Source: Microvirga arsenatis
Lineage (GTDB): Bacteria > Pseudomonadota > Alphaproteobacteria > Rhizobiales > Beijerinckiaceae
Length of the DNA: 64,000 nt
Reading direction: 5' to 3'
NCBI RefSeq assembly: GCF_009910705.1
Contig: NZ_JAAAXJ010000002.1
Location: 372,001 to 436,000 of the forward strand
The position numbers and the translations under genes were made by a program. A model generated the notes under the pieces. It ran no database searches, was not told the origin of the DNA, and saw nothing but the letters and a program-made list of their open reading frames with translations. Shown one piece after another: positions 1 to 19,826 of this stretch; position 1 is the first letter of the stretch, and each line of letters starts with the position of its first letter.

Positions 1-785
1 GATGCTCCCCTTGCGGCGGGAACGGTTTGGTGGGTGTCCGACAGCAACTCGAACATGTCCGCGAGCGCTGACAGTTTCTCGCCAAGACGGCGGTCCTCTA
101 GGCCTGGGCCGGGATCCAGCATGTCGGCAAGTCCTGCCCTGTCGAGGCAATCGGCGAACGGATCGGCGGCGGCGGCTTCCAAGGCGGCGGCCAGCAGAAG
201 CCCATGGCGCAGGATGGAGGGCGCCGGCGATCCCCCCATAAGCGCTGCGGTGTCGGCCCGGCGCAGGAGGGGCATCGCGAGGGGAAGAAGGCGGGTCGTC
301 TGCTGCCGCGTCGACGCTGTGCGTTCATCGTGAACGTTTCCGATAGTGTCCGCAACGTTGTGGTAGCCACAGGCAAGAAGCCAATGCGGCACGTCGCGGT
401 CCGACGGGGAAGCGTTCCTGAGCCTGTGGACAGCCTTCTTCATCGCGGCGGTCCCCATGAATGTCGCGCCACATGGCAGCACGGGCAGATGGCGGCAAGA
501 AGCCAGCAGCGGCGAGCGTATGAGATGCAGCGGAGCGGCCAGGATTAGATCGCCGTCCTCCTCCACCTGGTCGAGCAGCCGTCGCAGATCAGCGAGCGGG
601 CGGCTTCCTGCATCGATCCGCACGACCGGGACGGATGATGCTGTCGAGGGAGCACTCAGTGCGATGGCACCGGGGTGCGTGAACTGGACCAGCGTCGCCG
701 GCCTGTCGACGGTGGCAAGGCCACGGGCGGTCAGCAGCGCCGCATGGGATGCGGATGTATCGTCCGCGAAGAACGCAACGATCAT
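1..785 (-). CDS. Paralogue A of the 6292-7374 protein, partial (DUF6634-like C-terminus)
   Basis: The minus-strand frame opens at ATG 785 and stays open to the window edge, so the C-terminus is missing. A GGAGAGG ribosome site lies 5 nt upstream. The start MIVAFFADDTSASHAALL aligns with MIPAFVAVDGRSVSTHAALL of the gene at 6292-7374, and both share a middle part rich in Leu/Ala/Pro. The last visible stretch (ALADMFELLSD) aligns with DLADALQAIRD, where the other copy enters a region resembling DUF6634 (recalled from family memory, not searched). It is transcribed alone from its own promoter, which carries the palindrome at 887-901. Function unknown. The N-terminal part has a weak flavour of a nucleotide-binding alpha/beta fold, but no motif supports that. 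Confidence 0.75.
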   Translation of the reverse strand, partial: MIVAFFADDTSASHAALLTARGLATVDRPATLVQFTHPGAIALSAPSTASSVPVVRIDAGSRPLADLRRLLDQVEEDGDLILAAPLHLIRSPLLASCRHLPVLPCGATFMGTAAMKKAVHRLRNASPSDRDVPHWLLACGYHNVADTIGNVHDERTASTRQQTTRLLPLAMPLLRRADTAALMGGSPAPSILRHGLLLAAALEAAAADPFADCLDRAGLADMLDPGPGLEDRRLGEKLSALADMFELLSDTHQTVPAARGA

Positions 786-919: not shown

Positions 920-1828
920 TCAGGCGAACAACATCGCTGCTTGGTTACCAAGAGGTTGCCGACGGGTCCGAGCACCACGGGTTTGCCGGCGCCGAAGCGC
1001 TGCGAGGCCCCGGGCCAGTGGGACAGGCATCACGGGTGTTGCGGCAACGGCCGGAACGGCAACAAGCATCGGGGAAGGACGATCCGACGATTGCCAGCGG
1101 TCGAGAAACTCGCCCAGGTGCGGGCGTTCCGCCCTCCCCGCCTCCAGGCAGCTGACGAGACTTTCCATGCTGGCGTTGTGCCCGGCCGCATCGATCCGCC
1201 CGGTGAGGAATGCCCAGCGAACGTACAGGGCATACAAGTTCAGGACATCGCCCTCGCAATAGGCCCTGACTTGCTCGATGTCGCCCCGCTCGACCATGGC
1301 CTCGACCTCGGAGCCGTGACCGCCGATCTTGCCGGGCAGGCCCATCGCGCGGGCCGCCTCGTCCAGGCCCATCCGTGCGCTCGCCCCATAGTCGGAGAGC
1401 ACCTCCATGAGGTCGCAATGCCAGTCCGGCGCAAAACGCTGGGCGTAGTTGTTCCACCTGTTGCCGCGTTGGCTCCAGGCGTCGGCGGTGATGCCATGGA
1501 TCAGGGAGCGCAGTTGCAGGACCGCGATGTCGAAGGCCCGCCCGTTCCAGGTCACCATGCGCATGTTCCGTTGCGCGAAGTGGCGCCAGAACGCGGTGAG
1601 GATGCGCCGCTCGTTCCAGTCGGGGCGTCCACCCGAGCGGCAGCACTCGACGACGTAGCGCTCCTGCTCCGTGCCTTCGTCGCGCTCGATCCTTGCCTCC
1701 ACCACCGAGATCGCGACGATGCGGTGCCAGATCGGTTTTGGGAACTTGTCGGCGGGCCAGTCCGCAGGAATGAGATCGCGGTCCGGAACGGTTTCGATGT
1801 CGAGGCAGATCAGGCGGTCGTGCTGCAT
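920..1828 (-). CDS. DnaQ/PolB-type 3'-5' exonuclease
   Basis: A 302-residue protein of the RNase H-like exonuclease fold, closest in pattern to the predicted PolB-like exonuclease family (DNA_pol_B_exo2). From the chosen start the motifs are Exo I LDIET (D10, E12), Exo II WNGRAFD (D100), HCDL (D139) and Exo III YCEGD (Y190-x3-D194), so the DEDD metal ligands appear complete and a YxxxD active site is expected. The start at 1828 is preferred because GGAG lies 6 nt upstream; another ATG is at 1840. It is the last gene of the leftward operon 7374-920, 81-93 nt behind the degenerate phosphoesterase. It probably trims DNA or RNA ends; the substrate is unknown. Confidence 0.8.
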   Translation of the reverse strand: MQHDRLICLDIETVPDRDLIPADWPADKFPKPIWHRIVAISVVEARIERDEGTEQERYVVECCRSGGRPDWNERRILTAFWRHFAQRNMRMVTWNGRAFDIAVLQLRSLIHGITADAWSQRGNRWNNYAQRFAPDWHCDLMEVLSDYGASARMGLDEAARAMGLPGKIGGHGSEVEAMVERGDIEQVRAYCEGDVLNLYALYVRWAFLTGRIDAAGHNASMESLVSCLEAGRAERPHLGEFLDRWQSSDRPSPMLVAVPAVAATPVMPVPLARGLAALRRRQTRGARTRRQPLGNQAAMLFA

Positions 1829-1921
1829 CGTGGACTCCATGGTGAACGACAGCGGTGTCAGGGGTGACGAAGTGGCCGTTGAAGGAAAGGCGACCGGGCA
1901 GGTGCAGGTGGGGCGAGCGGC

Positions 1922-2959
1922 TCAGACCTCGACGATGAGCCCCGGGCTGGGAGCGTCGGTGTGCCCGGTGCCACCGGGATTGCTCACGACACGGGTTTTC
2001 CCGACCCGGTAGTCGACGGCTCCCGCCACGTGTCCGTGGACCCACAGGGCGGGAGCGCCCCAGCTCTGCATGATCGGCTCTAGATCGGACGCATGGGCTG
2101 TGGGCAGCCAGCGCTCGGTGGAGCACCAGCCGATCCAGTCGTCAGGCAGGGAGCGTCGGGATGGGGCGTGATGGGTCAGCACGACGGCCCGGTCGCCCGG
2201 TCGCACGCCGGTGATCATCGACTCCGGGGACGGGCGAATGCCGTGCTCCTGGCAGACGATGCTGCCGAGGACGTCTTCAATGTAGGCACGTGACCGCGCG
2301 TGCGCGCCGGCGGCCACGTGCGGTGACCAAGACCGTTGTTGCGTCAGGATGATGCGCTGACAATCTGGCCACGAGCCGCGCGCAAAGCCACGTGCAACGG
2401 TGGCCCGGTCGGCGCCATTGAGGCCCCAATCGGTCCACAGCGTTGCACCGACGACGTGCACGCCCCGCCCCTGCCTGTCGACGAGGCTGGCGGTTTCGTC
2501 CGAGAGCAGCGTGATGCCAGTGTTGCGCGCGAACTCGCGACCGCGGGCCAAGGTCTCGGCCATCGGGCGCCCGTTCCAGTACTCCTCGTTGCCTGGGACC
2601 ATGAGGATGGGGTGATCGCGGCAACGGCTGCGCAAGGAGCGGTCGACCCACCGCAGCGCCTCCTCCAGATCCGAGGCCACGCCGCCCGCGATCAGGACTG
2701 CATCGCAGTCCGGCAGATGGTCCGGCAGCGTGAAGGGCGGGAGGCGTCCGTCATCAACGTGCAGGTCGGACATGATCCAGAACCGCATGCCGCAATCCGG
2801 CGCGGCCTTGGGACGCGCCGGTGCCGACCTGGCGGCCGCGCGCCCGCGGGAGGCGTCGTGGGTGGGCCGGCGCAGGGGAGCGGTCGGCGTGCCGGGAGTG
2901 GATTTCGGGAGCGGAGGAATGGTTCTTGGCTTCGGCGTGGTCCGAGGTGCGTCAGTCAT
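1922..2959 (-). CDS. Degenerate metallophosphoesterase-fold protein
   Basis: A 345-residue calcineurin-like phosphoesterase homologue, clearly paralogous to the gene at 4842-5630 (shared SDLH, ATLWTD/CTLWTD, THHAPSRRS, ALWVHGH, VDYR, TRVV.NP). It keeps D65 and H67 and the THH motif. The GD motif is AGGV (G93 replaces Asp), GNHE is GNEE (E125 replaces His) and GHMH is GHVA (A312 replaces His). Three metal or catalytic ligands are therefore lost, and hydrolysis is doubtful. A Pro/Arg-rich extension of about 57 residues precedes the fold. The start at 2959 has GGAG 11 nt upstream; a second ATG lies at the fold boundary (residue 58). It sits between the AAA+ ATPase and exonuclease genes and may be a structural or regulatory partner of the active copy. 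Confidence 0.8.
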   Translation of the reverse strand: MTDAPRTTPKPRTIPPLPKSTPGTPTAPLRRPTHDASRGRAAARSAPARPKAAPDCGMRFWIMSDLHVDDGRLPPFTLPDHLPDCDAVLIAGGVASDLEEALRWVDRSLRSRCRDHPILMVPGNEEYWNGRPMAETLARGREFARNTGITLLSDETASLVDRQGRGVHVVGATLWTDWGLNGADRATVARGFARGSWPDCQRIILTQQRSWSPHVAAGAHARSRAYIEDVLGSIVCQEHGIRPSPESMITGVRPGDRAVVLTHHAPSRRSLPDDWIGWCSTERWLPTAHASDLEPIMQSWGAPALWVHGHVAGAVDYRVGKTRVVSNPGGTGHTDAPSPGLIVEV

Positions 2960-3031
2960 TCTCGCGAGGTCTCCGCCATTGGGCTTTGGGCCGCAGGAGT
3001 TCAGCCGGTCGGGATCAAGGGAGGGAAAGCG

Positions 3032-4750
3032 TCACTGCGGCCTTGCAAGGCTGGCGTGTTCTCGGACCCGCAGGACCGCGTCGACCATGCGCCGAAGCCT
3101 GCGCACGGAGCCACCCTGCCAGCGCGTGCGGAGGGCATCCCGTTCGATGCCGTCCAAGGGCGGAAAGTAGCGCGCATCCAGTCCCCGCTCGCGGGCGATG
3201 TCCTCGACCAGGGCGGGCAGAAGGGCGTCCAGGTGCTCGGGACCCGGCTCGGGAAAGAACAGGACGGCGCGGAAGCGGTCGAGCAGGGGACTAGGGAGAC
3301 GCCAGACTTCGTTCGCGGTGCAGATCATGGACACCCAAGACAAGTCGAGGTCCGCCTGCAGGCAAGGGTCGGGAAAGCGGGCCGCCGTCTCCGGCTCCAT
3401 CGCCTGCAGCATGGAGTCCCACAGCCGGCCGTAATCCGAGCGGGTCGGCGCCTTGTCGACCTCGTCCACAAGCAGCAGCGGATTCGCTTGCTGGAACCGG
3501 GCGATGGCCATGAAGGGGCGGCACGGCTCGGTCGAATACCACCGCCGTTCGGTGCCGCCGAACGAGCCGCCTCCGTCGTTGGATCCATCCACGCGGAAGA
3601 CACCCATGCCCAAGGCCTCGCCGAGACGCCTCACGAAACGGCTTTTCCCCGACCCCGGCGCCCCTTCGACCAGAAGGTGTCCAAGATGCACATAAGGGCG
3701 GCCCACAAGCCACCGCAATGTTTGGTCGATGACAGCCTCAGCCTGCGGGAACTCACGGAGCAGGGTCCGGCGGACCGCCGGCAGGTCGGGGGTGGCGACC
3801 AGGGGCAACGCAGCGCCGATGACATGCTCGTAGCCGCGCCAAGCCTCCCTGCCCCGGCTGCTTCCTGTTTCGCCTGCGGACCGGCAGACAATCACATGGC
3901 CCTCTGGAGGCGGAGCGTCGGCCGGTGCCGCGTCCGGCTGGGACGCCGGTGTCTGCGTGCTCTTTTCCTGCTCTTTGCGGCGGGCGAGGGCCGCCTTGCG
4001 CTCCGCGACGCGGCGGCGTTCCTCCGCCACCGCAAGGCGCTCGACCGGTCCGAGGACGAGGCGGCCGGCCTTGAGGGCCACGGTCGCCAGTGTTTCGTAG
4101 GCATAGGCCTCCGGCACGCGTCCGACAGCCATGACTGACAACCCTGTGCCCAAGCAGGCGACGTCCTTCTTGAGCCCGTTGTAGGCCGCGCCGAGCGCTT
4201 GGCGCCATTGCTGGGCAGCATCCGTCCGGACGGCCGCACTCGCCGGGAAGGTGGCGCCCATCTCAGGATCGTCGACCTGGGCAAGAAGGTCATCGAACGG
4301 GTTCGGCGCCTCCTCCTGGTCTCCCTCGGATGCCAGGAGGAGGCTCAGCCGCGCAAGGGCCGTTCCGACCTCGTCGAGCCGCTCCGCGTCGCGCCAGACC
4401 GCCAAGGCGAGGCGCATGGCGATGTCCCGTTCACCCGCGGGGCCGAGGAGCATGAGCAAGGCGTCTGCCACCTCCCGCGCCGCGGGCCGGTCGGTGAGGG
4501 CGGCAACCTCATCGAGCATGGAGCAGGTGCCTGCCAGCGGGATGTCCGCCGGCAGGCGGAGCGTTCCAACGGCGGCGTCGAGGCAGCGCTGGACCGTCGC
4601 GCCAAGACCGGCGCCGAGCGCGCGGGCATCGACAATGAGCTGCTTCGCGGGCTCGCCGTGGATGCCGTCGGCGTCGAGAGCCGTCCGGAGGACCCGGGGA
4701 AACGCCCGAAGCACGATGGATCGTGCCAGCGCGGGCTTGATACGTGACAT
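3032..4750 (-). CDS. AAA+ ATPase with a helical N-terminal region
   Basis: A 572-residue protein. Residues 1-250 are mostly Ala/Leu-rich helix. A charged stretch and a Pro/Ala linker follow, then an AAA+ module from about 320 with Walker A GAPGSGKS (363-370), Walker B LLLVDEVDK (D429, E430), a sensor-1-like CTAN and a lid segment with QGGSVRRLRRM. The pattern recalls the ATPase part of Lon or MoxR proteins, but there is no protease domain. ATG 4750 is chosen because AAGG lies 7 nt upstream and the protein then no longer overlaps the phosphoesterase gene. It is the middle gene of the leftward operon and is likely the motor or remodelling subunit of the system. Substrate unknown. Confidence 0.8.
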   Translation of the reverse strand: MSRIKPALARSIVLRAFPRVLRTALDADGIHGEPAKQLIVDARALGAGLGATVQRCLDAAVGTLRLPADIPLAGTCSMLDEVAALTDRPAAREVADALLMLLGPAGERDIAMRLALAVWRDAERLDEVGTALARLSLLLASEGDQEEAPNPFDDLLAQVDDPEMGATFPASAAVRTDAAQQWRQALGAAYNGLKKDVACLGTGLSVMAVGRVPEAYAYETLATVALKAGRLVLGPVERLAVAEERRRVAERKAALARRKEQEKSTQTPASQPDAAPADAPPPEGHVIVCRSAGETGSSRGREAWRGYEHVIGAALPLVATPDLPAVRRTLLREFPQAEAVIDQTLRWLVGRPYVHLGHLLVEGAPGSGKSRFVRRLGEALGMGVFRVDGSNDGGGSFGGTERRWYSTEPCRPFMAIARFQQANPLLLVDEVDKAPTRSDYGRLWDSMLQAMEPETAARFPDPCLQADLDLSWVSMICTANEVWRLPSPLLDRFRAVLFFPEPGPEHLDALLPALVEDIARERGLDARYFPPLDGIERDALRTRWQGGSVRRLRRMVDAVLRVREHASLARPQ

Positions 4751-4841
4751 GGGGCAGCCTTGGTGTCGGGTAGACGGATCCGCAGTCCAACAGGGACGCG
4801 GATGGGCGAATTCGGTGCCTCTGATTGAGGCGGGCCCCAGC

Positions 4842-5630
4842 CTATGAGGCGACCTCCACGACGAGCGCCGGGTCGAATTTGCTGTTTTCGGTTCCGTATC
4901 CCTTTGGATTGCACACGACCCGCGTGCCGCCGATCCGGTAGTCGACGCTCGCATGCATATGGCCATGGACCCACAGGGTCGGCGCCGCCGCCTCGATGAG
5001 CGGCTCCAGATCGGATGCGTATGCCGGGTTCAGGGCGCTCTTGGCGAACTGTGGCGCCACCGACCGCCGGCTCGGAGCATGGTGCGTGATCACCACACGC
5101 GATACGAGGTCGTCCGCCACGCGCAGGTCGCCAAGCAGGACCTCCCTGAGATAGGCCCGCGAGGCCGCATGAAGGGCGGCGGCCTCCTCCGGTCGGAAGC
5201 GTCGCCACTGGGGCTTGGTCGCCCAGGCGATCCGTCGGTGGTCGTTCATGCCACGGCGCGCGGACTCCATCGCCAGCGGCCGCAGTACGGCACCGTCGAG
5301 GGCATAGTCCGTCCACAGGGTGCAACCCGTGATGCCCACCCGCCCGATCACGACGCTGTCGTTCTCCAGGAGGTGGATGCCGCGCTCGGCCGCCGCGGCC
5401 CGGCCTCTGGCCAGCTCCGCCGGCAGTTCGCTGCGGTAGAACTCATGGTTGCCCGCCACCATCAGCACGGGCATGTGCGGCCGTATCGTCTCGCCCGCCC
5501 AGGCGATGCTGTCCACGAGTCCTTCGCCGATGTCGCCGGCGATCACGGCCACGTCAGCCTGCGGGATGGTGGCAGGAGCCCATGCGGGCCCGACGTCCCG
5601 GTGAAGGTCGGACAAGATCCAAAGTCGCAA
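4842..5630 (-). CDS. Metallophosphoesterase (calcineurin-like), intact active site
   Basis: A 262-residue protein with the full set of dimetal phosphoesterase motifs: SDLH (D8, H10), AGDIGE (D33), GNHE (N61, H62), THHAPS and GHMH. Family members hydrolyse phosphomono- or phosphodiesters, including nucleic acids and cyclic nucleotides; the substrate cannot be read from sequence. The start is TTG 5630 with GGGAGG 5 nt upstream, leading at once into the first strand. It lies between a 180-residue hypothetical protein and the AAA+ ATPase. The gene at 1922-2959 is a paralogue lacking three of these ligands, so this copy probably supplies the catalysis. Confidence 0.85.
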   Translation of the reverse strand: MRLWILSDLHRDVGPAWAPATIPQADVAVIAGDIGEGLVDSIAWAGETIRPHMPVLMVAGNHEFYRSELPAELARGRAAAAERGIHLLENDSVVIGRVGITGCTLWTDYALDGAVLRPLAMESARRGMNDHRRIAWATKPQWRRFRPEEAAALHAASRAYLREVLLGDLRVADDLVSRVVITHHAPSRRSVAPQFAKSALNPAYASDLEPLIEAAAPTLWVHGHMHASVDYRIGGTRVVCNPKGYGTENSKFDPALVVEVAS

Positions 5631-5672
5631 GCAATCCTCCCAGGGCTGGGGTTAGGGACATTGGCAGGTCGG

Positions 5673-6215
5673 CTAGGCCGGTGGCTGCGGCGGGTCCGTC
5701 AGCGGGCCGGGTGCGGGACGGCGGCTCCATTGCCGCCACCGGACAGACAGGTCGAGGCACGCCGCATGCCGCTCCGACTGGCGGGCCAGGCGCGACAGCG
5801 CGTGGGCCAGAATGAACGGCGAGGCCGCATCGCCTTGCAGCCCGTGCGCGAGAAGGCAGCTCATGACGAAGTCGGCGTAGCGGCTGTCGAGCGCGCCGCG
5901 GCGCAGCAGGAGATCGACCGCGGCTCCGATCACGAGCGCCGAGTTGGCCCGCGCATGCAGGCGCCGGCTGCCAACGGACGCGGGGCCGTTCAGGGCGAGC
6001 ACCCGTTCCAGCACGCGCCGGCGCCCGGCCCCGATCTCCTCCGGGGCCAGGGTGCGCCAGAAAGCCAGGGCCTGCCGCTCCGTGGCCGTCACGTGCCGTT
6101 GCCGGCCGCCCCGTCGCGGCCGCCGACCGGCGCGGGCTCCACCGGGGGGCGAGACTTTGCGCGGCCGGGGGACGGCCGGCCTGATGTGCTGGGGGCGCTT
6201 GACGATGGGCGGCAT
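5673..6215 (-). CDS. Hypothetical protein, basic N-terminus, helical C-terminus
   Basis: A 180-residue protein with no recognised domain. The first 40 residues are Pro/Arg/Gly-rich and strongly basic, a pattern common in nucleic-acid-binding tails. From about residue 45 onward it looks like an all-helical domain with repeated Leu/Ala segments. ATG 6215 has GGAG 5 nt upstream; a longer frame would overlap the preceding gene. It is the second gene of the leftward operon, 76 nt after the DUF6634-like protein and 42 nt before the phosphoesterase. The product may be an adaptor, but nothing in the sequence proves a role. Confidence 0.55.
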   Translation of the reverse strand: MPPIVKRPQHIRPAVPRPRKVSPPGGARAGRRPRRGGRQRHVTATERQALAFWRTLAPEEIGAGRRRVLERVLALNGPASVGSRRLHARANSALVIGAAVDLLLRRGALDSRYADFVMSCLLAHGLQGDAASPFILAHALSRLARQSERHAACLDLSVRWRQWSRRPAPGPLTDPPQPPA

Positions 6216-6291
6216 GGTTGCTCCGTCGGCTGCCCGGGCCTGGTCCCGGGTTCGGTGTCTGATGGCTGGCGGGGTGATGGTCGGGATCGAC

Positions 6292-7374
6292 TCAGTGCAC
6301 CGAAGCGGCAGCGGACCCGTCCTGGGCCGGGGTCCCGAGCCTGTACAGGCGCGAAAGCGTGCGGGCGTAGGTGCGGCCGTCGGTGGCGTATACCTCCGAG
6401 GTCCGGACCAGCCGTCCGGAAGGAATGCTGGGATGGCCATAGGATCGGCCCTCCAGGATGCGGACGGGCCGGGTCGTCCGCACCCAATCATCGAGCACCG
6501 GCGCCGTGGCGAGTTCCTCCGGCGTGGGCGGGTTCCCGTCGCGGATCGCCTGGAGCGCGTCCGCAAGGTCGCGCAGCCGCTCCGGCTCGTCGCGCTCGTC
6601 CGCCGTGATCCGCGTCGGATCGCCCGCCCCCAGGATCTCGGCGAAGGCCGCAGGGTCGATGTCCGGCGCGGAGGGGGCCGCGGCGACGGCGCGCAGGGCG
6701 GCGGTGAGGAGCACGCCCGAGCGCAACAACCAGGGCCGGGGCTGTCCGGCCAGCAGCGAGGCCGCCTCGCCCCGGCTCAGCAGCGGCAGCGTGAGGGGCA
6801 GGACGCGGGCCGGCACGGGTCCGGCGTCGGCGGTGAGGAGCGCCTGCATGGTCTCGGTGAAGCCGGCCAGGGCGGGTCCGCCGCCGGAGCGCCCGCATCC
6901 CAGCAGCCACGGCACAGGGCGTGCGGCCTGCGGCCCCCCGTCCATGCCCTGCCGGGACCCAGGCTCCCGCGGACCCATGCCGGCCGCCAAGTCGTGGAGG
7001 GCCGAGGCGACGAGGTGCTCGTCCAGCGGGGCCGGGCCGACGGGAACGACCGGCAGCACTCGCGCGCGCGCCGGCCCGGCCCAGTCGGTGAGCTCGGCGA
7101 GTGGCATGTCGAGCACGACGGCCCGGCCGTCGCCCTCGGCGGCGGCAATGGCCCGGTCGACGGCTGGACGGTGTCCTGCCGCAGCGAGCGGATGCTCGAC
7201 GACGCGGACGGCATCTGGCATCGTTTCCGGACTCGGGAGCGCCGCCTCGGCCGCTCCCGTGATCCGGACCAGGGTCACGGGTCGGTTTGCGGCGATGCCG
7301 AGGCCACAGGCAGCAAGCAAGGCCGCGTGGGTGCTGACGGAGCGCCCATCGACGGCGACAAAGGCGGGGATCAT
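6292..7374 (-). CDS. Paralogue B: uncharacterised N-terminal domain plus DUF6634-like C-terminus
   Basis: A 360-residue protein, first gene of the leftward operon. About 250 N-terminal residues (Ala/Leu/Pro/Gly-rich) match only the partial paralogue at 1-785. The C-terminal ~95 residues (DLADALQAIRDG, GHPSIPSG, RTSEVYATDG, RTLSRLYRLG) fit my recollection of DUF6634, a small Rhizobiales domain of unknown function. The start at 7374 matches the paralogue's MI start and has GGGAGAG about 10 nt upstream; an earlier in-frame ATG at 7395 overlaps that site. The promoter 7473-7501 carries operator site 2. Function unknown. Confidence 0.7.
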   Translation of the reverse strand: MIPAFVAVDGRSVSTHAALLAACGLGIAANRPVTLVRITGAAEAALPSPETMPDAVRVVEHPLAAAGHRPAVDRAIAAAEGDGRAVVLDMPLAELTDWAGPARARVLPVVPVGPAPLDEHLVASALHDLAAGMGPREPGSRQGMDGGPQAARPVPWLLGCGRSGGGPALAGFTETMQALLTADAGPVPARVLPLTLPLLSRGEAASLLAGQPRPWLLRSGVLLTAALRAVAAAPSAPDIDPAAFAEILGAGDPTRITADERDEPERLRDLADALQAIRDGNPPTPEELATAPVLDDWVRTTRPVRILEGRSYGHPSIPSGRLVRTSEVYATDGRTYARTLSRLYRLGTPAQDGSAAASVH

Positions 7375-7501: not shown

Positions 7502-7537
7502 GACAATCCTGCCCGGCCGCCTGCGCTCGAAGCGCTG

Positions 7538-7942
7538 ATGGTTAACGGCTTCCCGGCCGACGAGCCTATTCCGGGGGAGCTGTGCCAGGCGGCCAGGACG
7601 ATGCTCGGGCTTTCGCAGCGGCAGCTCGCGGAGGCGGCGGGCGTCTCGAAACTTTACATCAATGATTTTGAGAACGGCTTCCGCAGGATCGCAGCGAAGT
7701 CCGTCGCAAAGCTGCGCGCGGCGCTGGAGGCTGGCGGTGCCCGCTTCCTCAAGGGCGACGGCTGCACTGGCGTCGTCACGGAGATGGATCGGCCGGAGTT
7801 CGAGCGGCAGTCCCGCTCGCCGGAAAGACGGGAACGAGGCGCAGGATCGGACGCTGACGGAGCCGAGGCTGAAGGAGGGGGGCAGCAGGCGCCGCGTCCG
7901 CGGGGAAGGCCGCGCAAGGCGTCCTTGCCACCGGCCGCGTGA
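7538..7942 (+). CDS. XRE/Cro-type helix-turn-helix regulator
   Basis: A 134-residue protein. Residues 14-70 form an HTH_3 domain: helix one ELCQAARTMLGLS, then QRQLAEAAGVSKLYINDFENG, the usual turn and recognition helix, then KSVAKLRAALEAGGARFL. The C-terminal 60 residues are charged, Arg/Gly/Pro-rich and probably disordered. It is divergent from the operon starting at 7374, with the palindromic site 7475-7489 in between, so autoregulation and control of the operon are likely. Two further copies of the site (887-901, 8101-8115) suggest a small regulon. The ribosome site before ATG 7538 is weak. Confidence 0.8.
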   Translation: MVNGFPADEPIPGELCQAARTMLGLSQRQLAEAAGVSKLYINDFENGFRRIAAKSVAKLRAALEAGGARFLKGDGCTGVVTEMDRPEFERQSRSPERRERGAGSDADGAEAEGGGQQAPRPRGRPRKASLPPAA

Positions 7943-10344: not shown

Positions 10345-10442
10345 GCCGCACCGAAACCCGGCCGAAACGGCCCGGGGGCGGCTCAAGCCGCCCCGGATCG
10401 ACAACCACCCATCCAACCCAAGGACAGACAAGGAGCCTGACC

Positions 10443-10823: not shown

Positions 10824-10879
10824 TCTGGCGGCGACGTCTCCCATCCTCGCGGGCCCTCGGCCCCCGCCCTGTTCATCCG

Positions 10880-11435: not shown

Positions 11436-12401
11436 ATGCGCATGACGCCCGCCCAATCCATTCTTGCGGCCCGCGCCGCCAACCGCGAGCAGACCCCGTT
11501 GACGCTGCCCGCATTCCCGAAGCCTGCCGCCGCGACGGCAGGCTCGGACCACACCGGAGACCTGGCGGCATACTTCCGCGCCAGGCTCGCCAGTCCGGTT
11601 CCCGAGCCGCTGACGCCCGATGACCCCGAACCGGTCGCGCGGGACTGGCCCGCCGCCGCAGGACCGGCCGAGCCGCTCTCGGGCGTCCGGATCACCCACC
11701 GCCATCCTGCCCTCGCCTTCGGCCTCGAAGCCGTCCCGGAGATGGCCATCGGACGCTCGCCCCGCAGCTCCCAGCGCGGCCGCCGGAGCCGGTTCCACAG
11801 CCTCAAGACGCGACGCACGCTGCGGGCGGCATCCAGCTCGGAGCATGACAATTTCCTGCACCACGAGCTTGATCCCTCGGTCCTGATGTTCGTCGAGCAG
11901 CCCATCCGTCTCCAGTACCTCGACCGGAGCGGCGCGGTGCGGTTCCACCGGCCGGACTGCCTCGTCCTGCGGCCCGACTGGGTGTTCGAGGAGGTCAAGC
12001 CGGAGGAGGACGCCGCGCGCGAGGAGAACGAGGCCCGCTGGCCCGAGATCGGCGCGGCGCTGAACAGCCTTGGCTACTCCTTCAGGGTCGTCACCGAGCG
12101 CCACCTGCACCGCAAGCCGCGCTGGCCCAACCTCACCCTGATCTGGCGGCACCGCCTCGCGCCGGTGCCGCAGACGGACCTGCGCGATGGGCTCGCCGCT
12201 GCCCTGCGCGACGCTGGCTGCCTGACCATCGCGGAGATCCTCACGCGCTTCCCGGCGCTGGAGGGCAAGCACGTCTACGCGCTCTGCCGCCGCGGCTTTC
12301 TGGCCGTCGACCTCGATGGCCCTCCGCTCGGTCCCGCCACCCCGGTGCGCCTGGGGCGCGGTCTGATGACTTGGCTCGGTTCGGTCGACGGGGAGGAATG
12401 A
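11436..12401 (+). CDS. tnsA: TnsA-like transposon endonuclease
   Basis: A 321-residue protein. Residues 130-215 carry the restriction-enzyme-like core of TnsA: FLHHELDP (E144), RFHRPDC (D174) and VFEEVK (E186, K188), the E...D...ExK arrangement that cuts the 5' ends of the transposon. The segment LGYSFRVVTERHL follows as in TnsA. The C-terminal ~110 residues would correspond to the winged-helix TnsC-contact domain. The first ~125 residues are Ala/Pro-rich and unusually long for the family. ATG 11436 is chosen with AAGGA upstream; ATG 11442 is an alternative. The stop is 1 nt before the ATG of the transposase, so the two are coupled. Confidence 0.8.
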   Translation: MRMTPAQSILAARAANREQTPLTLPAFPKPAAATAGSDHTGDLAAYFRARLASPVPEPLTPDDPEPVARDWPAAAGPAEPLSGVRITHRHPALAFGLEAVPEMAIGRSPRSSQRGRRSRFHSLKTRRTLRAASSSEHDNFLHHELDPSVLMFVEQPIRLQYLDRSGAVRFHRPDCLVLRPDWVFEEVKPEEDAAREENEARWPEIGAALNSLGYSFRVVTERHLHRKPRWPNLTLIWRHRLAPVPQTDLRDGLAAALRDAGCLTIAEILTRFPALEGKHVYALCRRGFLAVDLDGPPLGPATPVRLGRGLMTWLGSVDGEE

Positions 12402-12402
12402 C

Positions 12403-14586
12403 ATGGCCCGCCACAGCTTTGCCGTCGGCGTCCACATTTACATCGGCCGGACGCGGTACCAGATGGTGGCGTCCTTCCCCAAGGAAGGCGTGGAGCACTG
12501 GGAGCTCAAGAACACCAAGAACGGCGTCAGAACGGACAAGCCGCGCACCGAGCTCGAACACCTCTATGACGAGGGGGACCTGCGCTTCGACGGGGACCGG
12601 GACGAGGACACCGAGGACAAGCGCCGGGAGCGCCGTCGCCGGCACGGCGTGCCGCTGAGCGACATGGACCCGGCGAAGCAGAAGCGCGTGGCCTTCCGCC
12701 GGGCCGTGATCCGCACGGTCGACGAACGCACCGCTCCGGGCACCAAGACGGCGAAGGTGATCGTGAACGGCGCGGCCACCGGAACCACGGTGCTGCAGGC
12801 GCTGCTGGACGAACTCGGCCGCACGCTTGGGCTGGAGCATCTCGGGAAGGAGCAAACCGTCAGCCAGGCCACCTACTACCGGTGGTGCGCGATTTACCGT
12901 GCCTACGACGAGCACCGCGACCTCGGCGGCGACCATGACCAGCGCGGCAACCGCAAGCAGCTGCATCCCTTGGTGGCGAGGATCATGAAGGAGGAGATGG
13001 CGGCCGAGATCGAGGCGGCGCGCCACCGGAACCAGCCGGGAGGGAAGGTCCATCCCGTGATGGCCTCCATCATGGGCAGGGTCCTGAAGCGGGTCAAGGC
13101 CGAGCGCCTCAGGCACCCGGGCGAGACGCTGCGCATGCCCGAGAAGACCACGTTCTACAATCACTGGAACGAGTTCGACGCCCGCCTGCGCGACATCGCC
13201 AAGTACGGTCTTGTGAGAGCGCGGCAGATGCACCGCTTCCCGCGGCCGAGCGTCGATCCGGAGCACGCCCTCGACCTTGTGCAATTCGATGAGACGCGGC
13301 TGCCGATCTTCGTGATCGACGAGATCCTGGGCATCCCGCTCGGACGCCCGTGGCTGGCCTGGCTGGTCGACGTGTACACGGGCGCGATCATCGGGGTCTA
13401 CCTGGGGTTCGAGCCGCCGGGCGACCTGGTGATCGGCAGCACGCTCCGGCATGCCGCCTCGATGAAGAGCTATGTGGCGAAGGAGTACCCGGGCCTTCCC
13501 CCCTGGCGCTTCTCCGGCCTGCCGCGGCACATGACCTTCGACAACAGCCTTCAGGCCCACGGCAGGACCATCCAGACCATCGCCGGCAACCTCGACATTC
13601 CCTACGACTTCACCCCGGCCCGCATGCCCTGGACCAAGTCGGAGGTCGAGGGCGCCTTCCAGGTCGCCAACACGCAGTGGCTCCAGGAGATGAACGGCTT
13701 CGTGCTCGCCGCCAGGGACGAGATCGACGGCCAGGACTACGACCCCACGCGGAACGCCGTCATGGGCTTCCGGCACCTGTTCTACATCCTGCATTGCTGG
13801 CTGCTGGAGGTTTACCACCAGAAGCCGACGCCGGGAACGCGCCTCTCGCCCGACCAGCGCTGGAGCGCCGGCACGGCCCAGGTCGACCCTGAGTTCCCGG
13901 AAGACGGCACCGATCTCGACCTCATGTTCGGCATCGTCCGGGAGGGCCAGCTCCTCGACCACCGCGGCGTCGTCTACGAGAACATCCGCTATTACTCCGA
14001 GGGCCTCAGCCGCGTGCGCGACCGCAACGGCCACTCGCTGAAGGTGAGGGTCAAGGTGAACCCGCTCAACCTTGGCAAGATCCACGTCTGGGACCCGAAG
14101 GTGGAGATGTGGATCCCGGCGACGGCGCGGGAAATGGGGTACGGCGACTACGCGGAGGGCCTCGAACTCCACTGCCACAAGCTGTATCTGCGGCACGCCG
14201 ACCGCCTGTCCGGCCGGAAGTCGCTGGAGGCGCTCATCGAGTCGCGCCTCCACCTGCAGGATCTGATCGCGCATGCCCTGCCCGACGCGCTGAGCATCCG
14301 GACGAACACCCTGATCGCGCGCGCGATGGGTGTCGGCTCGCAGCACATCATCGCCAATCTCGATGCGGGCGGAAATCTGCCGCGGCTGACGGGTCCCTTC
14401 GCCGGCCTGCCGCTCAATCCGCTCCTGCCCCCGCCGCAGCCCGTCGCCGTGCCGCCCGTCAAGCAGATCGGCGGCCCCGCGCCGGCAGCCGCGGCACCGG
14501 CCTCGGAGGCCCCGGGCGCGGCCCCCGTCCGGCCGCGGCGCGCCATCCCAACCTTCAAGACCAACCGCTCCATTGGCCGCGGCTGA
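12403..14586 (+). CDS. tnsB: TnsB-like DD(35)E transposase
   Basis: A 727-residue transposase of the Mu/Tn7/Tn5053 group. Order: an N-terminal domain (1-60), helix-turn-helix regions (~125-285), the RNase H-like core with LVQFDET (D296), MTFDNS (D380) and PWTKSEVEG (E416), which gives an exact DD(35)E spacing, and a C-terminal barrel near 520-570 (GVVYENIRYYSEGL...KVNPLNLGKIHVWDP). A Pro/Ala-rich tail ends in a basic segment, where TnsB proteins contact TnsC. It makes the 3' cuts and strand transfer. It follows tnsA by 1 nt and precedes tnsC by 36 nt. All catalytic residues are present, so it is probably active. Confidence 0.9.
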   Translation: MARHSFAVGVHIYIGRTRYQMVASFPKEGVEHWELKNTKNGVRTDKPRTELEHLYDEGDLRFDGDRDEDTEDKRRERRRRHGVPLSDMDPAKQKRVAFRRAVIRTVDERTAPGTKTAKVIVNGAATGTTVLQALLDELGRTLGLEHLGKEQTVSQATYYRWCAIYRAYDEHRDLGGDHDQRGNRKQLHPLVARIMKEEMAAEIEAARHRNQPGGKVHPVMASIMGRVLKRVKAERLRHPGETLRMPEKTTFYNHWNEFDARLRDIAKYGLVRARQMHRFPRPSVDPEHALDLVQFDETRLPIFVIDEILGIPLGRPWLAWLVDVYTGAIIGVYLGFEPPGDLVIGSTLRHAASMKSYVAKEYPGLPPWRFSGLPRHMTFDNSLQAHGRTIQTIAGNLDIPYDFTPARMPWTKSEVEGAFQVANTQWLQEMNGFVLAARDEIDGQDYDPTRNAVMGFRHLFYILHCWLLEVYHQKPTPGTRLSPDQRWSAGTAQVDPEFPEDGTDLDLMFGIVREGQLLDHRGVVYENIRYYSEGLSRVRDRNGHSLKVRVKVNPLNLGKIHVWDPKVEMWIPATAREMGYGDYAEGLELHCHKLYLRHADRLSGRKSLEALIESRLHLQDLIAHALPDALSIRTNTLIARAMGVGSQHIIANLDAGGNLPRLTGPFAGLPLNPLLPPPQPVAVPPVKQIGGPAPAAAAPASEAPGAAPVRPRRAIPTFKTNRSIGRG

Positions 14587-14622: not shown

Positions 14623-15768
14623 ATGAATGCCGTTGTCCCTGTCCCGACCCCGTCCAATCCGTGGGCCGTCATGCAAAGCGTCTTCGTCGAGCACCCCCTG
14701 TTCGACGACATCATGGTCGAGGTCGAGGACGTTCTAAGCCTCCACGGCTCCGCCGCCGAGGTTCCGTGCGTGATGATCAGCGGCGTCACCGGCATCGGCA
14801 AGTCGACCCTGTTCGGGAAGCTGGTGGAAAGATACCCCGTGACGAAGGACGGACGCCGGACGGTGCTGGCCTCCGGGGAGGAGCTGACCGTCGACGACGT
14901 GCCGCTCCTGGCCCTGGAGATGCCGTCGCGGCCGCGGGTGATCCCGGTGGCGAAGGCGATGCTCAAGGCCCTCGGCGACCCGCTCTGGAACAAGGGCAAG
15001 CGGGAGGATCTGGAGGACCGTGTCGACCTGTACCTGAGGGCTTGCGGCACCAAGGGAGTGCTGATCGACGAGGCGCAGCGCGCCGTCGACCGCAACGGCG
15101 CGCTGACCGCGGCGGACCTGATCGACTGGATCAAGTCGCGCCATGGCAACACCGGCATCAGCTTCATCTTCCTCGGCCTGCCCCGGATGCGGCTGCTGGT
15201 CGAACAGGATGGGCAGTTCGACCGCCGCTGGGACAACGACATCCCGATGCCGCCCTACGAATGGGGCCGGGACATTCCGCCGAAGGACGTCCCGGACGAG
15301 GAGGCCGACGACGAGGAGCCGGAGAGCCGCCTTTTCTTCTACGGCCTGCTTGCTGCCTTCCAACGCGAGAGCCCCTTCCCTTTCGCGGGGGAGATCGACA
15401 TTGGGGACTACACCACCGCGAAGCGCTTCTACTACGCCAGCCGCGGCGTGATCGGCCGGCTGAAGAAGCTGTTGGCCATGGCGATGCGCGTCATCATGCG
15501 CGAGAAGAAGGACAAGGAGATCACGTTCGCCGTGCTGGAGAAGGCGTTCGACCGCGCCTTCCGCAAGGACAAGGCGCTTGAGAGGCTCGTCAATCCCTTC
15601 GGCAAGGCGTGGAAGGGCGAACTCCCGCCGCCCCTGCCCCAGGACGATGTGCCCGTGCCAAGGGCTCGTCCCCAACCGCGGGGTGGACAGGCGCCGAAGC
15701 GGGGCGGGGGTGGACGCAAGTCCGAGCGCAATCTTGCCGTCATGGCCGCCCTGACGAAGAGGAGCTGA
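14623..15768 (+). CDS. tnsC: TnsC/TniB-like AAA+ transposition regulator
   Basis: A 381-residue protein. Walker A is GVTGIGKST (54-62), Walker B is GVLIDEAQ (D149, E150), and the sensor segment is ISFIFLGLP. FDRRWDNDIPMPPYEW follows, a conserved layout in TnsC/TniB, where the ATPase forms a filament on target DNA and connects TniQ/TnsD to the transposase. The C-terminal 50 residues are Pro/Gly/Arg-rich and basic. An AAAGG lies upstream of ATG 14623. The tniQ gene starts 6 nt after its stop. Confidence 0.88.
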   Translation: MNAVVPVPTPSNPWAVMQSVFVEHPLFDDIMVEVEDVLSLHGSAAEVPCVMISGVTGIGKSTLFGKLVERYPVTKDGRRTVLASGEELTVDDVPLLALEMPSRPRVIPVAKAMLKALGDPLWNKGKREDLEDRVDLYLRACGTKGVLIDEAQRAVDRNGALTAADLIDWIKSRHGNTGISFIFLGLPRMRLLVEQDGQFDRRWDNDIPMPPYEWGRDIPPKDVPDEEADDEEPESRLFFYGLLAAFQRESPFPFAGEIDIGDYTTAKRFYYASRGVIGRLKKLLAMAMRVIMREKKDKEITFAVLEKAFDRAFRKDKALERLVNPFGKAWKGELPPPLPQDDVPVPRARPQPRGGQAPKRGGGGRKSERNLAVMAALTKRS

Positions 15769-15774
15769 GTACGG

Positions 15775-17718
15775 ATGCCGGCTCACCACACCCACACGGC
15801 CGGATGCCTGGTCGTCCGGACCGCTCCGGATCCGGAGGAGGGACTTCACCAGTTCGTGTCCCGCCTGGCGGCGCTGAACGGCTACCACGACCCGCGCTGG
15901 CTCATCCGCGGTGCCGGGCTGTCGCGGGTGTTCCTCACGACGCCATGCGATCTGACACGCATGGTGGCCATGCTCGACGGGGCGGTGGACGCCGACACGC
16001 TGGCCGCAACGGCCTACTGGCCCCTGCCCGGCGCCCCGGACCGTGTCCGCTTCGGCGATGTGCCATCCGGTGTGAGCCCGCGGGGCCTGACGCTGGCGCG
16101 GGGCAAGGTGTGCCCGGCCTGCCATGCGGATGGGCGGCCGGCGCGCCGGACCTGGGACCTGTTCGGGATCGCGGTCTGCCTGCGCCATGGCTGCCTGCTG
16201 CGGGACGGCTGCACCGCCTGCGGCTCCGCGTTCCCGCTGCTTGGCCCTGGCCTCCCGGCCGGGCGCACCCGGTGCCTCTGGTGCGGCGGGCCGGTGCTTG
16301 CGGAGCCCGTCCCGGCACCTCCTCCGGCCTTGGCCCTCGCCGCTTGGCTTGATGCCTTGGCTCGGGGCGCAAACCCGCCTGGCCGTGCGGTGCCCCTGCG
16401 CGAGTTGGACGCGGCGGTCCACCTGGTCCGCTTCTTCGGAGCGAGGGACATGGAGGCCGGCGGACGCGGGTGGCGGTCCGGCTACATCGCCAAGCCGCGC
16501 ATGGACGACATGCTCACCGTGACCGAACGCGCCGCAACGGTTCTCCTCGACTGGCCGGGCGGGTTCATCGACTACCTCGAACGACACCGGCGCGCCCCGG
16601 ATGCCCGGGTCGGCCTTGCGGCGGAATTCGGGTCGCTGCTGGTTCGCCTGCGCTCCGCCCTCGATCAGCCGCGCTTCGAGGCCGTCCTGGAACTCGCCCG
16701 GCGCCACGTCGCCCGGTCCATTCCCGGCCCGACGCTGAAGCCGTGGTCGTTTTTCAGCGTCCCGCCGGATCATCACGGGCCGGCCGGAGCCTCAACCGTG
16801 AGCGGCGTGGCCGCAGCCCGGGCGCTTGGCGTCAGCGTCGCGGCGGTGGCCCGGATAATCGCGGCGGGGGAACTCAAGGGTGAAAGCCGTCGCATGGGCC
16901 GGCGTCAGGCGCATCTCGTCGACGCAGCGTCGTTGACGGCCCTGACCGCACAGCGGTCTGGATCCCTGTCGGCGGCCCAGGCCGCATCCGAGCTGGGCCT
17001 GACGTCGTATCAGGTCGAGCGCCTTCGGGCGGCTGGGCTCCTGCATGGCAGGCGCGGCCGGGGCACGCCCGCCCACGAGTATCGGTTCGCTCCGGCCGAC
17101 CTCGCCGCCTTTGTGGACCAGCTCCATCAGGCCGCCCAGGCTGACCGCGCGGCGCCGCCCCGCACCCATGCGGTCAGCCTGTCGGAGGTGGCGGGCATGC
17201 GGGCGTTCAGCCTCGTCGAGGTCGTCAGGCGGATCATCTCCGGGATCCTGCCCGTGTTCGCGGCGCCTGACGGCCTCTCCGGCTCGCGCGGACGCCTCGG
17301 CCGGCTGATGGTCTCACGCTCCGACTTGTTGGGGCAGCGGGCGGACCCGGCCGGCGGAGTCAGCCTTGACGTCCGGCGGGCCGCCAAGGGACTCGGCGTG
17401 TCGGTGCGCATGATCCCGGTGCTGGTTCGTGCCGGCTGCCTCAGCGCTGGCACCCGGAACGCGGACACGCTGGCCAGGCGCAGCGTCAGCGCATCGTCCG
17501 TTGCCCGGTTCCGGCGTGGCTTCGTGATGGCCCGCGCCTTGGCGGCCCAGCACCGGACCAGCACCCGCATGGTCGTGAAGGGGTTGGCCGCCGCCGGCGT
17601 CTCGCCGGTCGTGGCTTCGGATCCGCGTAAGGGGATCTCCGCCGTCTGGCGTCGCGACGATGTCGACGCGGTGGACCTCGGGCGGGTGCTCCGGCGCATC
17701 GGTGGGGACGCCTCATGA
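15775..17718 (+). CDS. tniQ: TniQ/TnsD-like target-selection protein 1
   Basis: A 647-residue protein. Residues 10-60 hold the TniQ start (VVRTAPDPEEGLHQFVSRLA) and 105-175 the zinc part: C113-x2-C116, C135-x2-H138, C146-x2-C149 and C167-x2-C170. From about 340 to the end come four or five modules of 60-80 residues that look like winged helix-turn-helix or excisionase-type DNA-binding units, for example VAAARALGVSVAAVARII and AAQAASELGLTSYQVERLRAAG. TniQ/TnsD proteins choose the target site and recruit TnsC; a long DNA-binding array suggests a fixed sequence target. The stop overlaps the next gene (ATGA), so the two TniQ proteins are co-made. Confidence 0.85.
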   Translation: MPAHHTHTAGCLVVRTAPDPEEGLHQFVSRLAALNGYHDPRWLIRGAGLSRVFLTTPCDLTRMVAMLDGAVDADTLAATAYWPLPGAPDRVRFGDVPSGVSPRGLTLARGKVCPACHADGRPARRTWDLFGIAVCLRHGCLLRDGCTACGSAFPLLGPGLPAGRTRCLWCGGPVLAEPVPAPPPALALAAWLDALARGANPPGRAVPLRELDAAVHLVRFFGARDMEAGGRGWRSGYIAKPRMDDMLTVTERAATVLLDWPGGFIDYLERHRRAPDARVGLAAEFGSLLVRLRSALDQPRFEAVLELARRHVARSIPGPTLKPWSFFSVPPDHHGPAGASTVSGVAAARALGVSVAAVARIIAAGELKGESRRMGRRQAHLVDAASLTALTAQRSGSLSAAQAASELGLTSYQVERLRAAGLLHGRRGRGTPAHEYRFAPADLAAFVDQLHQAAQADRAAPPRTHAVSLSEVAGMRAFSLVEVVRRIISGILPVFAAPDGLSGSRGRLGRLMVSRSDLLGQRADPAGGVSLDVRRAAKGLGVSVRMIPVLVRAGCLSAGTRNADTLARRSVSASSVARFRRGFVMARALAAQHRTSTRMVVKGLAAAGVSPVVASDPRKGISAVWRRDDVDAVDLGRVLRRIGGDAS

Positions 17719-19826
17719 CGCTGTTGCGGAGGGGAACCAGGAGCCCGGGGCACGCCGGGGCGCCACCCGCCCCCGCGGCGGACCCGCCCGACGTCCTGGC
17801 GAACCCGCCGACAGGCAGGCTTGTTGTGCGCTCGCCTCCCCTGCCGCAGGAAGGTTTTCTGGAGTGGCTCCTCCGCCTCTCCGCCCGCAACATCCTTCCC
17901 GGGCCACAGGCCATCCTCAAGGCCGCTGGCCTCGGCGGCGGCATTCGGAACCATGGCCGGGACAAGGTCGTTGCGAGGGTCGCCGCCCTGACCGGCACAC
18001 CGCCGGAATCGGTGTCGATCCGGCTTGCCGAACGCTGGGCTGGCCCCCGGGACGGCCTCTTCATCGTCCCCGGCCATCCGGACCTGCGTCGGCGCATGCT
18101 GCGTTTTCATGAACCTGCAGTGTGTCTGGCCTGCCTTGAGGAGGATGGCGGTGTCGTCCCCGCCGCATGGGGCCTGGCGGCCTGGGTGGCTTGCCCACGC
18201 CATGAGTGCCGGATGGTTAGGACGTGCCCGGCGTGCTCCACACCGTTGTCGTGGAGCCGGCCCGCGGCCGGCCGCTGTGGTGCTCCAGGTTGTGGAAGGG
18301 CTTTGTTCTGCGACGCGCCCGATCCCGCACCTGCCCCAGTTGTCGATCTCGTGCGTCTGATCGCCAAGGCGGCGGGCGTAGGGGACATGCCGCCCTCGTC
18401 TCTGGAGCCCGTGTTCGGTAGCCTGCCACTCAAGCACCTCCTGATGATGATATCGGCCTTGGACGCGCCACTGCCGAATACGCCGGACAAGAAGCTTTGG
18501 ACATCGCGGCGGTCGGGCGAGGACGCGGTTCATGCGGCTTCCGAGCTGCTTGCGGATTGGCCGAGGCAGTTCCACGCCCACCTGCACCGCATTCGCGATC
18601 CAGACGCGGCGGGCCGCCATGTAAGCCTTCAAAAGGAGTTCCCCGAGTTCTTCCGTCGGCTGTCGCTCCGGGCTTTCTTCCCTGAGGACGCGCGGACAAT
18701 CCTGCTCAAGGAGGCCGTGGCGTTCCTCGATGAGCACTGGACCGGCGATCCGGTGAAGTCACAGCGTCTAGCCCGCCTGGGCGGGGCGTTGCCCACCTCC
18801 AAGTGGATCAGCCGGGGACAGGCGGCGCGCCGGCTTCGGGTGAATACACCTGCCATCGTGGATCTGGTCAACAAAGGGCTTCTCAAGGGGGAAAGGCGGG
18901 TGGCGGCCGGCTCCAACCGCCTGTGGATCGACCGGGCCGATCTTGAGCGCTTCGTCGTCGAAGAGAGTCGGCATGTCAGCCGGGAGGCGTTCAAGGCGAC
19001 AAATGGCCTTTTGACCAAGCAGGAAATCGCACAGCGGCTCGGGGTCGACTTGCCCCGGGTTGTCCACCTGGCCGAGGCAGGTCACCTTGATCAGCGGGGC
19101 CGCTATCCGGACCTGTATTACACCGAGGCTTCGGCCGATGGGCTGGTCGCGATGTTCGAGCGCGCGGCCTCGGGCACCCTCCCTCCTGGCCAAACCGCGA
19201 GTTCCCGACGCTTGGTCAGCGAACGTGGGCTGCGGCAGGGACGCTTGTCCATCGACATCGTCAAGCTGGTGGAGGCCGTGTCGGCCGGCTTGGCCGCACC
19301 GGCGCACGTTGATCAGGCGAAATCCGGCCTGCGCCGCTACTCGTTCGATGCGGACGAGATGAAGGCTCTGGCCCGGACCCTGAGCGGCGACACGACCCTC
19401 GACGTCGTCGCGGCGCAGAAGGCCCTGGCATGCGGGACGAAGGACGTGCCGCGCCTCATTGCGGCTGGCCTCCTTGCAGACCTTCGGTCCGGCCTTGGCG
19501 ACTGTGGTGGCAAGGGCGTGCGCCGGCGGGTGACACGCGAGAGTGTCGAGAACCTTCGGCGGGACGTGGCGCCATCCTCTGTGTTGGCGCGCGAACACGG
19601 CGTCCCGGCAAGCGCCTTCGACCGGCTTATGGCGGGGTTTGGGATTGAGCCGGTGCTCGCGCGGGCCGGAGAGAACACGCGGTCATTCTGGCGCCGAGAG
19701 GAGGTCGCGGCGGCTCTCGCAGGTCGGGAAGCGCGAAACGCTTCGCAGGAATTGCGGGAAAGTGATGGTGGATTCGCAGGAATTGGTGGTCAGAATTCGC
19801 ATTCCTGCGTGGAAAGAAATTCGTAA
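17715..19826 (+). CDS. tniQ: TniQ/TnsD-like target-selection protein 2
   Basis: A 703-residue protein with the same layout as its neighbour. The TniQ start is at ~35-85 (LVVRSPPLPQEGFLEWLLRL). Zinc cysteines include C137-x2-C140 and further pairs in ACPRHECRMVRTCPAC and GRCGAPGCGRALFC. From ~360 a C-terminal run of helix-turn-helix modules follows (RGQAARRLRVNTPAIVDLV; KQEIAQRLGVDLPRVVHLAE; DVVAAQKALACGTKDVPRLI; SSVLAREHGVPASAFDRLM). The two TniQ proteins may form a hetero-oligomer or serve two target pathways, as TnsD and TnsE do in Tn7. The last ~30 codons overlap the TTCGCA repeats, so coding sequence and transposon end are superimposed. Confidence 0.83.
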   Translation: MTLLRRGTRSPGHAGAPPAPAADPPDVLANPPTGRLVVRSPPLPQEGFLEWLLRLSARNILPGPQAILKAAGLGGGIRNHGRDKVVARVAALTGTPPESVSIRLAERWAGPRDGLFIVPGHPDLRRRMLRFHEPAVCLACLEEDGGVVPAAWGLAAWVACPRHECRMVRTCPACSTPLSWSRPAAGRCGAPGCGRALFCDAPDPAPAPVVDLVRLIAKAAGVGDMPPSSLEPVFGSLPLKHLLMMISALDAPLPNTPDKKLWTSRRSGEDAVHAASELLADWPRQFHAHLHRIRDPDAAGRHVSLQKEFPEFFRRLSLRAFFPEDARTILLKEAVAFLDEHWTGDPVKSQRLARLGGALPTSKWISRGQAARRLRVNTPAIVDLVNKGLLKGERRVAAGSNRLWIDRADLERFVVEESRHVSREAFKATNGLLTKQEIAQRLGVDLPRVVHLAEAGHLDQRGRYPDLYYTEASADGLVAMFERAASGTLPPGQTASSRRLVSERGLRQGRLSIDIVKLVEAVSAGLAAPAHVDQAKSGLRRYSFDADEMKALARTLSGDTTLDVVAAQKALACGTKDVPRLIAAGLLADLRSGLGDCGGKGVRRRVTRESVENLRRDVAPSSVLAREHGVPASAFDRLMAGFGIEPVLARAGENTRSFWRREEVAAALAGREARNASQELRESDGGFAGIGGQNSHSCVERNS

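Follow-up and report, generated by a model that had tools for sequence, protein, structure and literature searches.

The stretch of Microvirga arsenatis DNA analysed here (contig NZ_JAAAXJ010000002.1, positions 372,001 to 436,000 of the forward strand; 64,000 nucleotides, called the window below) carries near its first letter an operon that combines an AAA+ ATPase, two metallophosphoesterases (MPE1 and MPE2) and a predicted exonuclease. It is rather likely that the operon represents a variant of an anti-invader system that is modular and mobile; judged from the enzymes present, this system would probably be nucleolytic and driven by the AAA+ protein. The original prediction of a candidate defence or DNA-processing system gains support from the Gabija pair that the element also carries, and from two comparisons between neighbouring proteins and proteins from random places. 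Further copies of the element occur in two other genomes, G042 and G006, and related gene sets ride on mobile DNA of soil and plant-associated bacteria. The operon genes are as follows.

6292..7374, minus strand: gene A, 360 amino acids; degenerate ParA/MinD-fold domain (about residues 1-237) and DUF6634-like C-terminal domain (about 282-348)
5673..6215, minus strand: gene B, 180 amino acids; small helical protein of no known family
4842..5630, minus strand: MPE1, 262 amino acids, TTG start; calcineurin-like metallophosphoesterase with intact metal-ligand motifs
3032..4750, minus strand: AAA+ ATPase, 572 amino acids; helical N-terminal part and Lon-like AAA+ module
1922..2959, minus strand: MPE2, degenerate phosphoesterase; homology favours a possible start at 2788 (288 amino acids)
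920..1840, minus strand: predicted DEDDy 3'-5' exonuclease, 306 amino acids; DNA_pol_B_exo2 (PF10108) 204.6 bits, cut-off 24
1..785, minus strand: gene G, paralogue of the ParA-fold domain of gene A; ratio of non-synonymous to synonymous substitution rates (dN/dS) 0.37 against the G006 copy

The six genes from 7374 to 920 share one direction and are as closely spaced as originally described, with intergenic gaps of 42-91 bp (243 bp before MPE2 if its later start holds). Gene G is a seventh member, with 261 of its 318 amino acids encoded in the window and the remaining 172 bases past the window edge. Between the window and the G006 copy, dN/dS ranges from 0.16 to 0.37 across the seven genes (A to G), so that these are not chance open reading frames and are under purifying selection. 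The single good promoter once proposed did not hold up: one sigma-70-like site (7501->7473) was found in the 12 kb scanned, against 0.5 expected by chance, which is no evidence of a promoter.

The assignment of a motor, an intact phosphoesterase, its degenerate twin and a 3'-5' exonuclease is borne out by Pfam scores and motifs. The AAA+ protein matches Pfam AAA (45.4 bits, cut-off 21.2) and, over residues 361-496, gives a partial match to NCBIfam lon, far under the equivalog cut-off; its family profile matches Lon structures at E 5e-29, and Walker A/B and further ATPase positions are conserved. There is no Pfam match to the Lon protease domain, the sequence stopping just past the AAA+ module. 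MPE1 scores 36.4 bits against Metallophos (cut-off 21.5) and MPE2 21.3 bits, just under it. In MPE2, AGD is changed to AGG and GNH to GNE (AGG/GNEE for AGD/GNHE), and its dN/dS against G006 is 0.17. Among 18 hand-chosen Methylobacteriaceae operons, 17 have intact MPE1 motifs and one, L094 (loci are numbered with L), has no MPE other than one of degenerate type; the GNH histidine is absent from MPE2 in 17/17, and DxE, D and YxxxD are kept by the exonuclease in 17/17 (no exonuclease was called in L086), although these 17 are not 17 independent events, since near copies are included (L034/L036; L147/L182 and L146/L184 look alike). An intact enzyme is thus kept alongside a twin that is consistently inactivated, and MPE2 may accordingly serve as a regulator or a scaffold.

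Gene A had been described as DUF6634-like. This label refers to its tail, which scores 21.9 bits against DUF6634 (PF20339), below the Pfam cut-off of 27, and it is incomplete, because a domain of ParA/MinD fold is fused in front. The deviant Walker A lysines of ParA/MinD are not kept there, where the sequence reads DGRSVST; several stand-alone ParA-like relatives have KGGA(G/A)RT, with arginine in place of the usual lysine. Gene B has no above-cut-off family in Pfam, NCBIfam or PADLOC, and its predicted structure is mostly helical (predicted local distance difference test score, pLDDT, 84).

A search with the AAA+ protein in a sample of relatives gave 42 places in 26/101 genomes, 39 of which were examined; the full gene set with a Tn7-like (Tns) module is present at three of these (the window, G042 and G006). 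Of 53 AAA+ loci in named genomes, 50 were counted as family members, L132-L134 (25-32% identity) being excluded from the counts. AAA+ relatives also lie on 15 plasmid records (Bradyrhizobium, Methylobacterium, Acidiphilium, Azospirillum and others), and IMG/VR yielded ten loci on nine contigs, two of them weak. Genes in relatives were drawn with a simple codon-usage caller and labelled with profiles. The caller recovered 14/19 annotated genes of L077 and 11/13 of L079, some with different starts, and since it misses small genes, absences and operon counts are lower bounds. The 98 loci with a called core were reduced to 86 non-redundant ones by dropping 12 that had a core with 90% identity or more to that of a retained locus. 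The numbers of these 86 whose operon has a given gene are at least 80 for AAA+, 36 for B, 30 for MPE, 28 for DUF6634, 21 for GIY-YIG, 10 for FtsH-like, 10 for the ParA-DUF6634 fusion, 10 for the exonuclease, 10 for DUF2130 and 8 for PD-(D/E)XK-like.

Homologues of the operon genes are not scattered without order. The arrangement A-B-MPE1-AAA+-MPE2-exonuclease recurs in Microvirga, Methylobacterium and Methylorubrum and is altered in Enterovirga (L094: A, B, AAA+, one MPE, exonuclease). ParA-DUF6634, B, MPE1, (DUF6634), AAA+, MPE2 and exonuclease follow one another in L082, L084, L087, L088 and near copies. In L145, L147, L179 and L182 an FtsH-like AAA+/M41 protein replaces the Lon-like one with the order otherwise kept, and L083, L085 and L090 have both. 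Two of these FtsH-like alternative cores were tested and match Pfam Peptidase_M41 (E 1.2e-16 and 2.5e-14); HExGH is invariant in 9/9 FtsH-like proteins. In nine Microvirga loci (L046, L053, L054, L056, L059, L060, L061, L062, L066), ParA-like and DUF6634 are separate neighbouring genes before the AAA+ gene. DUF2130 lies directly downstream of the AAA+ gene in ten non-redundant Bradyrhizobium operons (L076, L100, L101, L108, L110, L113, L114, L117, L120, L122). Downstream of the AAA+ gene in L045, L047, L049, L051, L057 and L060 are gene pairs that resemble its N-terminal part and have no ATPase.

Gene B is linked to both types of AAA+ core. A B profile run over 199 genomes of the family, the window's own and G042 included, found nine B places in eight genomes, 9/9 of them sharing an operon with an AAA+ gene of Lon-like or FtsH-like type; one of the nine (G211) is a weak match (E 5e-10) at which the caller drew no B gene. 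Among 23 genomes picked as AAA+ carriers, 35/39 B places lie within 6 kb of such a gene, against 0.2 expected by chance (25 near Lon-like only, eight near FtsH-like only, two near both, four near neither); 22 of the 39 are at the loci used to pick the genomes, and the remaining 17 divide into 13 near an AAA+ gene and four with none nearby. The four B places with no adjacent AAA+ call, at three loci, retain MPE and nuclease-type partners.

The surroundings of the operons are rich in defence genes. Sampled non-operon neighbours were compared with proteins drawn from random positions along the same contigs (PADLOC, E<=1e-8), the neighbour sets including the regulator gene of L034 and L037 and a few downstream genes resembling the AAA+ N-terminal part. 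At a first 20 loci, 123 neighbours matched 173 models and 135 controls matched 8; at a second 20 loci, 137 neighbours matched 59 and 140 controls matched 7; a single protein can match many models, which inflates these counts. Named matches near the loci include Cas8c, Cas7c and Cas4c at L148, type IIG restriction at L152, a type II methyltransferase at L070, pAgo with SIR2 at L056, SIR2-Aga at L108, Upx at L117 and PDC-S37/Hhe at L114, and sampled neighbours also match SIR2/TIR-Aga and GajA models. L046 has a second GajA and a partial GajB; this pair, the L117 match and the large gene of L114 were picked by eye rather than sampled, in a targeted follow-up that covered case neighbours and no controls. 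In the first set, matches below E 1e-100 occur, among the matches listed (the first 25 models of each neighbour set), at 5/20 loci (L034, L056, L070, L148, L152), against one control region at most (a dGTPase, 2e-105); the second-set controls have none, the best being 7e-27. Control matches are mostly generic (mad2, mad3, mad8, SspA, DndA).

The window copy rides a Tn7-like element, as originally predicted for the adjoining module, whose TnsA, TnsB, TnsC and TniQ proteins match PDB structures. The features to the right of the operon are the following.

7535..7942, plus strand: divergent helix-turn-helix gene, start set from the G006 homologue
11436..12401, plus strand: TnsA-like protein (PDB TnsA-TnsB fusion, E 7e-5)
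12403..14586, plus strand: TnsB-like transposase (PDB Tn6677 TnsB, E 1e-40)
14623..15768, plus strand: TnsC-like ATPase (PDB Tn6677 TnsC, E 1e-13)
15775..17718, plus strand: first of two TniQ-like target selectors (PDB TniQ, E 5e-5, residues 100-193)
17715..19826, plus strand: second TniQ-like protein, clustering with the first; the cluster profile matches both
19750..19876, no strand: right end of the element, with end sequence and repeated end motifs

The divergent gene, whose product we take to be an XRE-type regulator, occupies the same place in G042 and G006, and its protein cluster is present in 14 loci. Between the regulator gene and TnsA, at 9394-11335, are three unlabelled genes, all of them called in G042 and the last two in G006. 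Homology among the three copies ends at window 19875/19876; a left end was looked for and not found. The right-hand flanking genes are common to the window and G006 copies and different in G042, so that the element moves. Outside the window, on its left side (about -3840 to -700; L034:8164-11296), the window's own and G042 copies carry a Gabija pair, which in the window's own element matches PADLOC GajA at E 2.6e-229 and GajB at E 8.8e-184; no such pair was found in 40 kb around the G006 copy. Genes just left of the window in the first two copies are presumably metal-resistance genes.

This association with transposition genes raises the question of whether the operon instead aids Tn7-like movement, target choice or DNA-end processing. 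TnsB/TnsC-like genes are found close to the operon in the window, G042, G006 and seven further loci (L045, L055, L085, L094, L118, L186, L187), and TnsA-like genes of family k10 are found inside several Bradyrhizobium operons. However, any Tns-type match at E<=1e-4 occurs at only 14 of the loci scanned, several of these matches being weak and the flanks reaching no further than 10 kb, so that larger carrier elements are missed; moreover, some copies lie on plasmids and some beside tyrosine recombinases. A role as transposon accessory is quite improbable. Less probable still, to the point of being remote, is a module that shields not the host but its own transposon or plasmid, as a weapon between elements or an anti-defence device: it would suit the mobile location, the plasmids and the few IMG/VR contigs, but host defence explains nuclease-type enzymes in defence islands no less well, and nothing supports anti-defence specifically. 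As further observations on carriers, k10 genes lie within or beside AAA+/FtsH operons at L103:8604-9200, L107:8625-9452, L186 and L187. A control stretch with a TniQ match (L188:4600-6534, G277:C38) shares a contig with L083 and lies outside the flank of that locus, and the L083 operon may thus also ride a Tn7-like element. Groups of recombinase-type genes common to L051, L052, L056, L057 and L066 adjoin the AAA+ modules; Phage_integrase is confirmed in L051 and L052, which suggests a second carrier type.

The modularity of the anti-invader system is seen in the first operon slot, which in Bradyrhizobium holds GIY-YIG, PD-(D/E)XK-like or putative HNH genes. The GIY-YIG label comes from a Pfam match that stays below threshold (E 0.001-0.002); the name PD-(D/E)XK-like is our own reading of a sequence for which Pfam gave no match. 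When slot-1 labels were mapped on a tree of 49 AAA+ proteins, some of them long-branched, these three partners were distributed no better than shuffled labels: GIY-YIG required 12 changes, ten of them forced by well-supported branches (153/500 shuffles as low), PD-(D/E)XK-like seven (171/500) and putative HNH three (500/500).

No named system with this gene set had been known to the original prediction. No PADLOC 2023 model covers the set, no description of it was found in the literature searched, preprints lying outside that search, and neither source gave a whole-set match to a known operon; likewise, no paper on DUF6634 or PDC-S10 was found there. Gabija, composed of ATPase and nuclease/helicase parts, is comparable as a mobile defence pair with a clear copy on the operon's own element; GajA and GajB find no match among the seven operon proteins at E<=1, and the nearby pair is separate. 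MADS and BREX are multi-gene systems in which an ATPase core is combined with nucleic-acid enzymes, a general resemblance to the operon; from MADS, only mad8 was matched by operon proteins (AAA region, generic, E 2.5e-4) and no other component. MPE1 matches PDC-S10 over part of its length (E 6e-11, best stretch residues 2-104 of 262, profile 11-108 of 223), and the one GIY-YIG partner tested, from the Bradyrhizobium version (L130), matches PDC-S14 (E 1.4e-28, residues 48-327 of 345). PDC-S14 and PDC-S10 are presumably single-gene candidates, as their names suggest, whereas the GIY-YIG partner and MPE1 belong here to one multi-gene operon family. The operon core shares its AAA+ module with Lon but has no protease domain, while the FtsH-like core, as in FtsH, also has Peptidase_M41; both differ from Lon and FtsH in their association, not at every place, with B, MPE or nuclease-type genes. 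The window protein differs from ParA/MinD in the loss of the ParA-type Walker A. A term search of the main text of PMC8649781 found no mention of a phosphoesterase or an exonuclease.

Several observations weigh against an anti-invader system of this kind. The defence role is argued from association, and DNA processing of another kind is possible; the neighbour enrichment shows an accessory-island location, where cargo of other functions also sits. MPE1 and the exonuclease, judged from their sequences, could act on nucleotides or RNA, and the predicted fold of B has no significant structural match. B lies within 6 kb of only 26/48 AAA+ places and 9/20 FtsH-like places, so that both AAA+ families extend more widely than the B operons, and in many AAA+ relatives no B, MPE or exonuclease was called, with a caller that gives lower bounds. 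Partner exchange is frequent but not free, since all partner labels pooled are clustered on the AAA+ tree (21 changes against a shuffled mean of 30.4, 0/200 as low): ParA-DUF6634, which fills slot 1 in the window, is confined to one Methylobacteriaceae group (three changes, 0/500 shuffles as low) and k10 to another (two changes, 0/500). Finally, some relatives are located among core genes; one example is a ParA-like/DUF6634/AAA+ trio (L054:6312-9244) next to genes that are presumably gyrB, recF, dnaN and dnaA. Such a location, together with the Lon/FtsH type of the cores, the invariant HExGH and the range of substrates conceivable for MPE1, would suit an AAA+ module for quality control or unfolding, equipped with phosphoesterases, that serves host stress or nucleotide metabolism and merely rides mobile DNA. 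This explanation is nonetheless unlikely, given the repeated change of nuclease-type partners, the patchy occurrence of the AAA+ gene in the sample of relatives and the defence-rich surroundings.

For the anti-invader system, we infer what B, the ParA fold and DUF6634 do, as well as a mechanism. A sensor or adaptor layer would consist of B, the pseudo-phosphoesterase MPE2 and the ParA-fold/DUF6634 proteins, which lack a nucleotide-binding motif of the normal kind. This layer would recognise nucleic acid or protein of the invader, or assemble on it. Using ATP, the AAA+ ring would remodel the resulting complex and so license cleavage and breakdown of nucleic acid by MPE1 and the DEDDy exonuclease. 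In other versions, GIY-YIG, PD-(D/E)XK-like or HNH proteins would take the nuclease role. The divergent helix-turn-helix protein probably holds expression low.

More tentatively, the operons may constitute a new immune class, in which swappable nucleases are organised around a hub of interchangeable proteolysis-type AAA+ rings (Lon- or FtsH-like); a conserved pair of active and inactive phosphoesterases and, in the window version, a ParA-fold sensor minus its nucleotide-binding motif would complete it. If so, one system spanning Methylobacteriaceae and Nitrobacteraceae would bring together several nuclease-type families, one Pfam domain of unknown function and two orphan candidates for defence. 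Its natural series of swapped nucleases and AAA+ cores would then offer a view of how an AAA+ machine licenses the degradation of invading nucleic acid.

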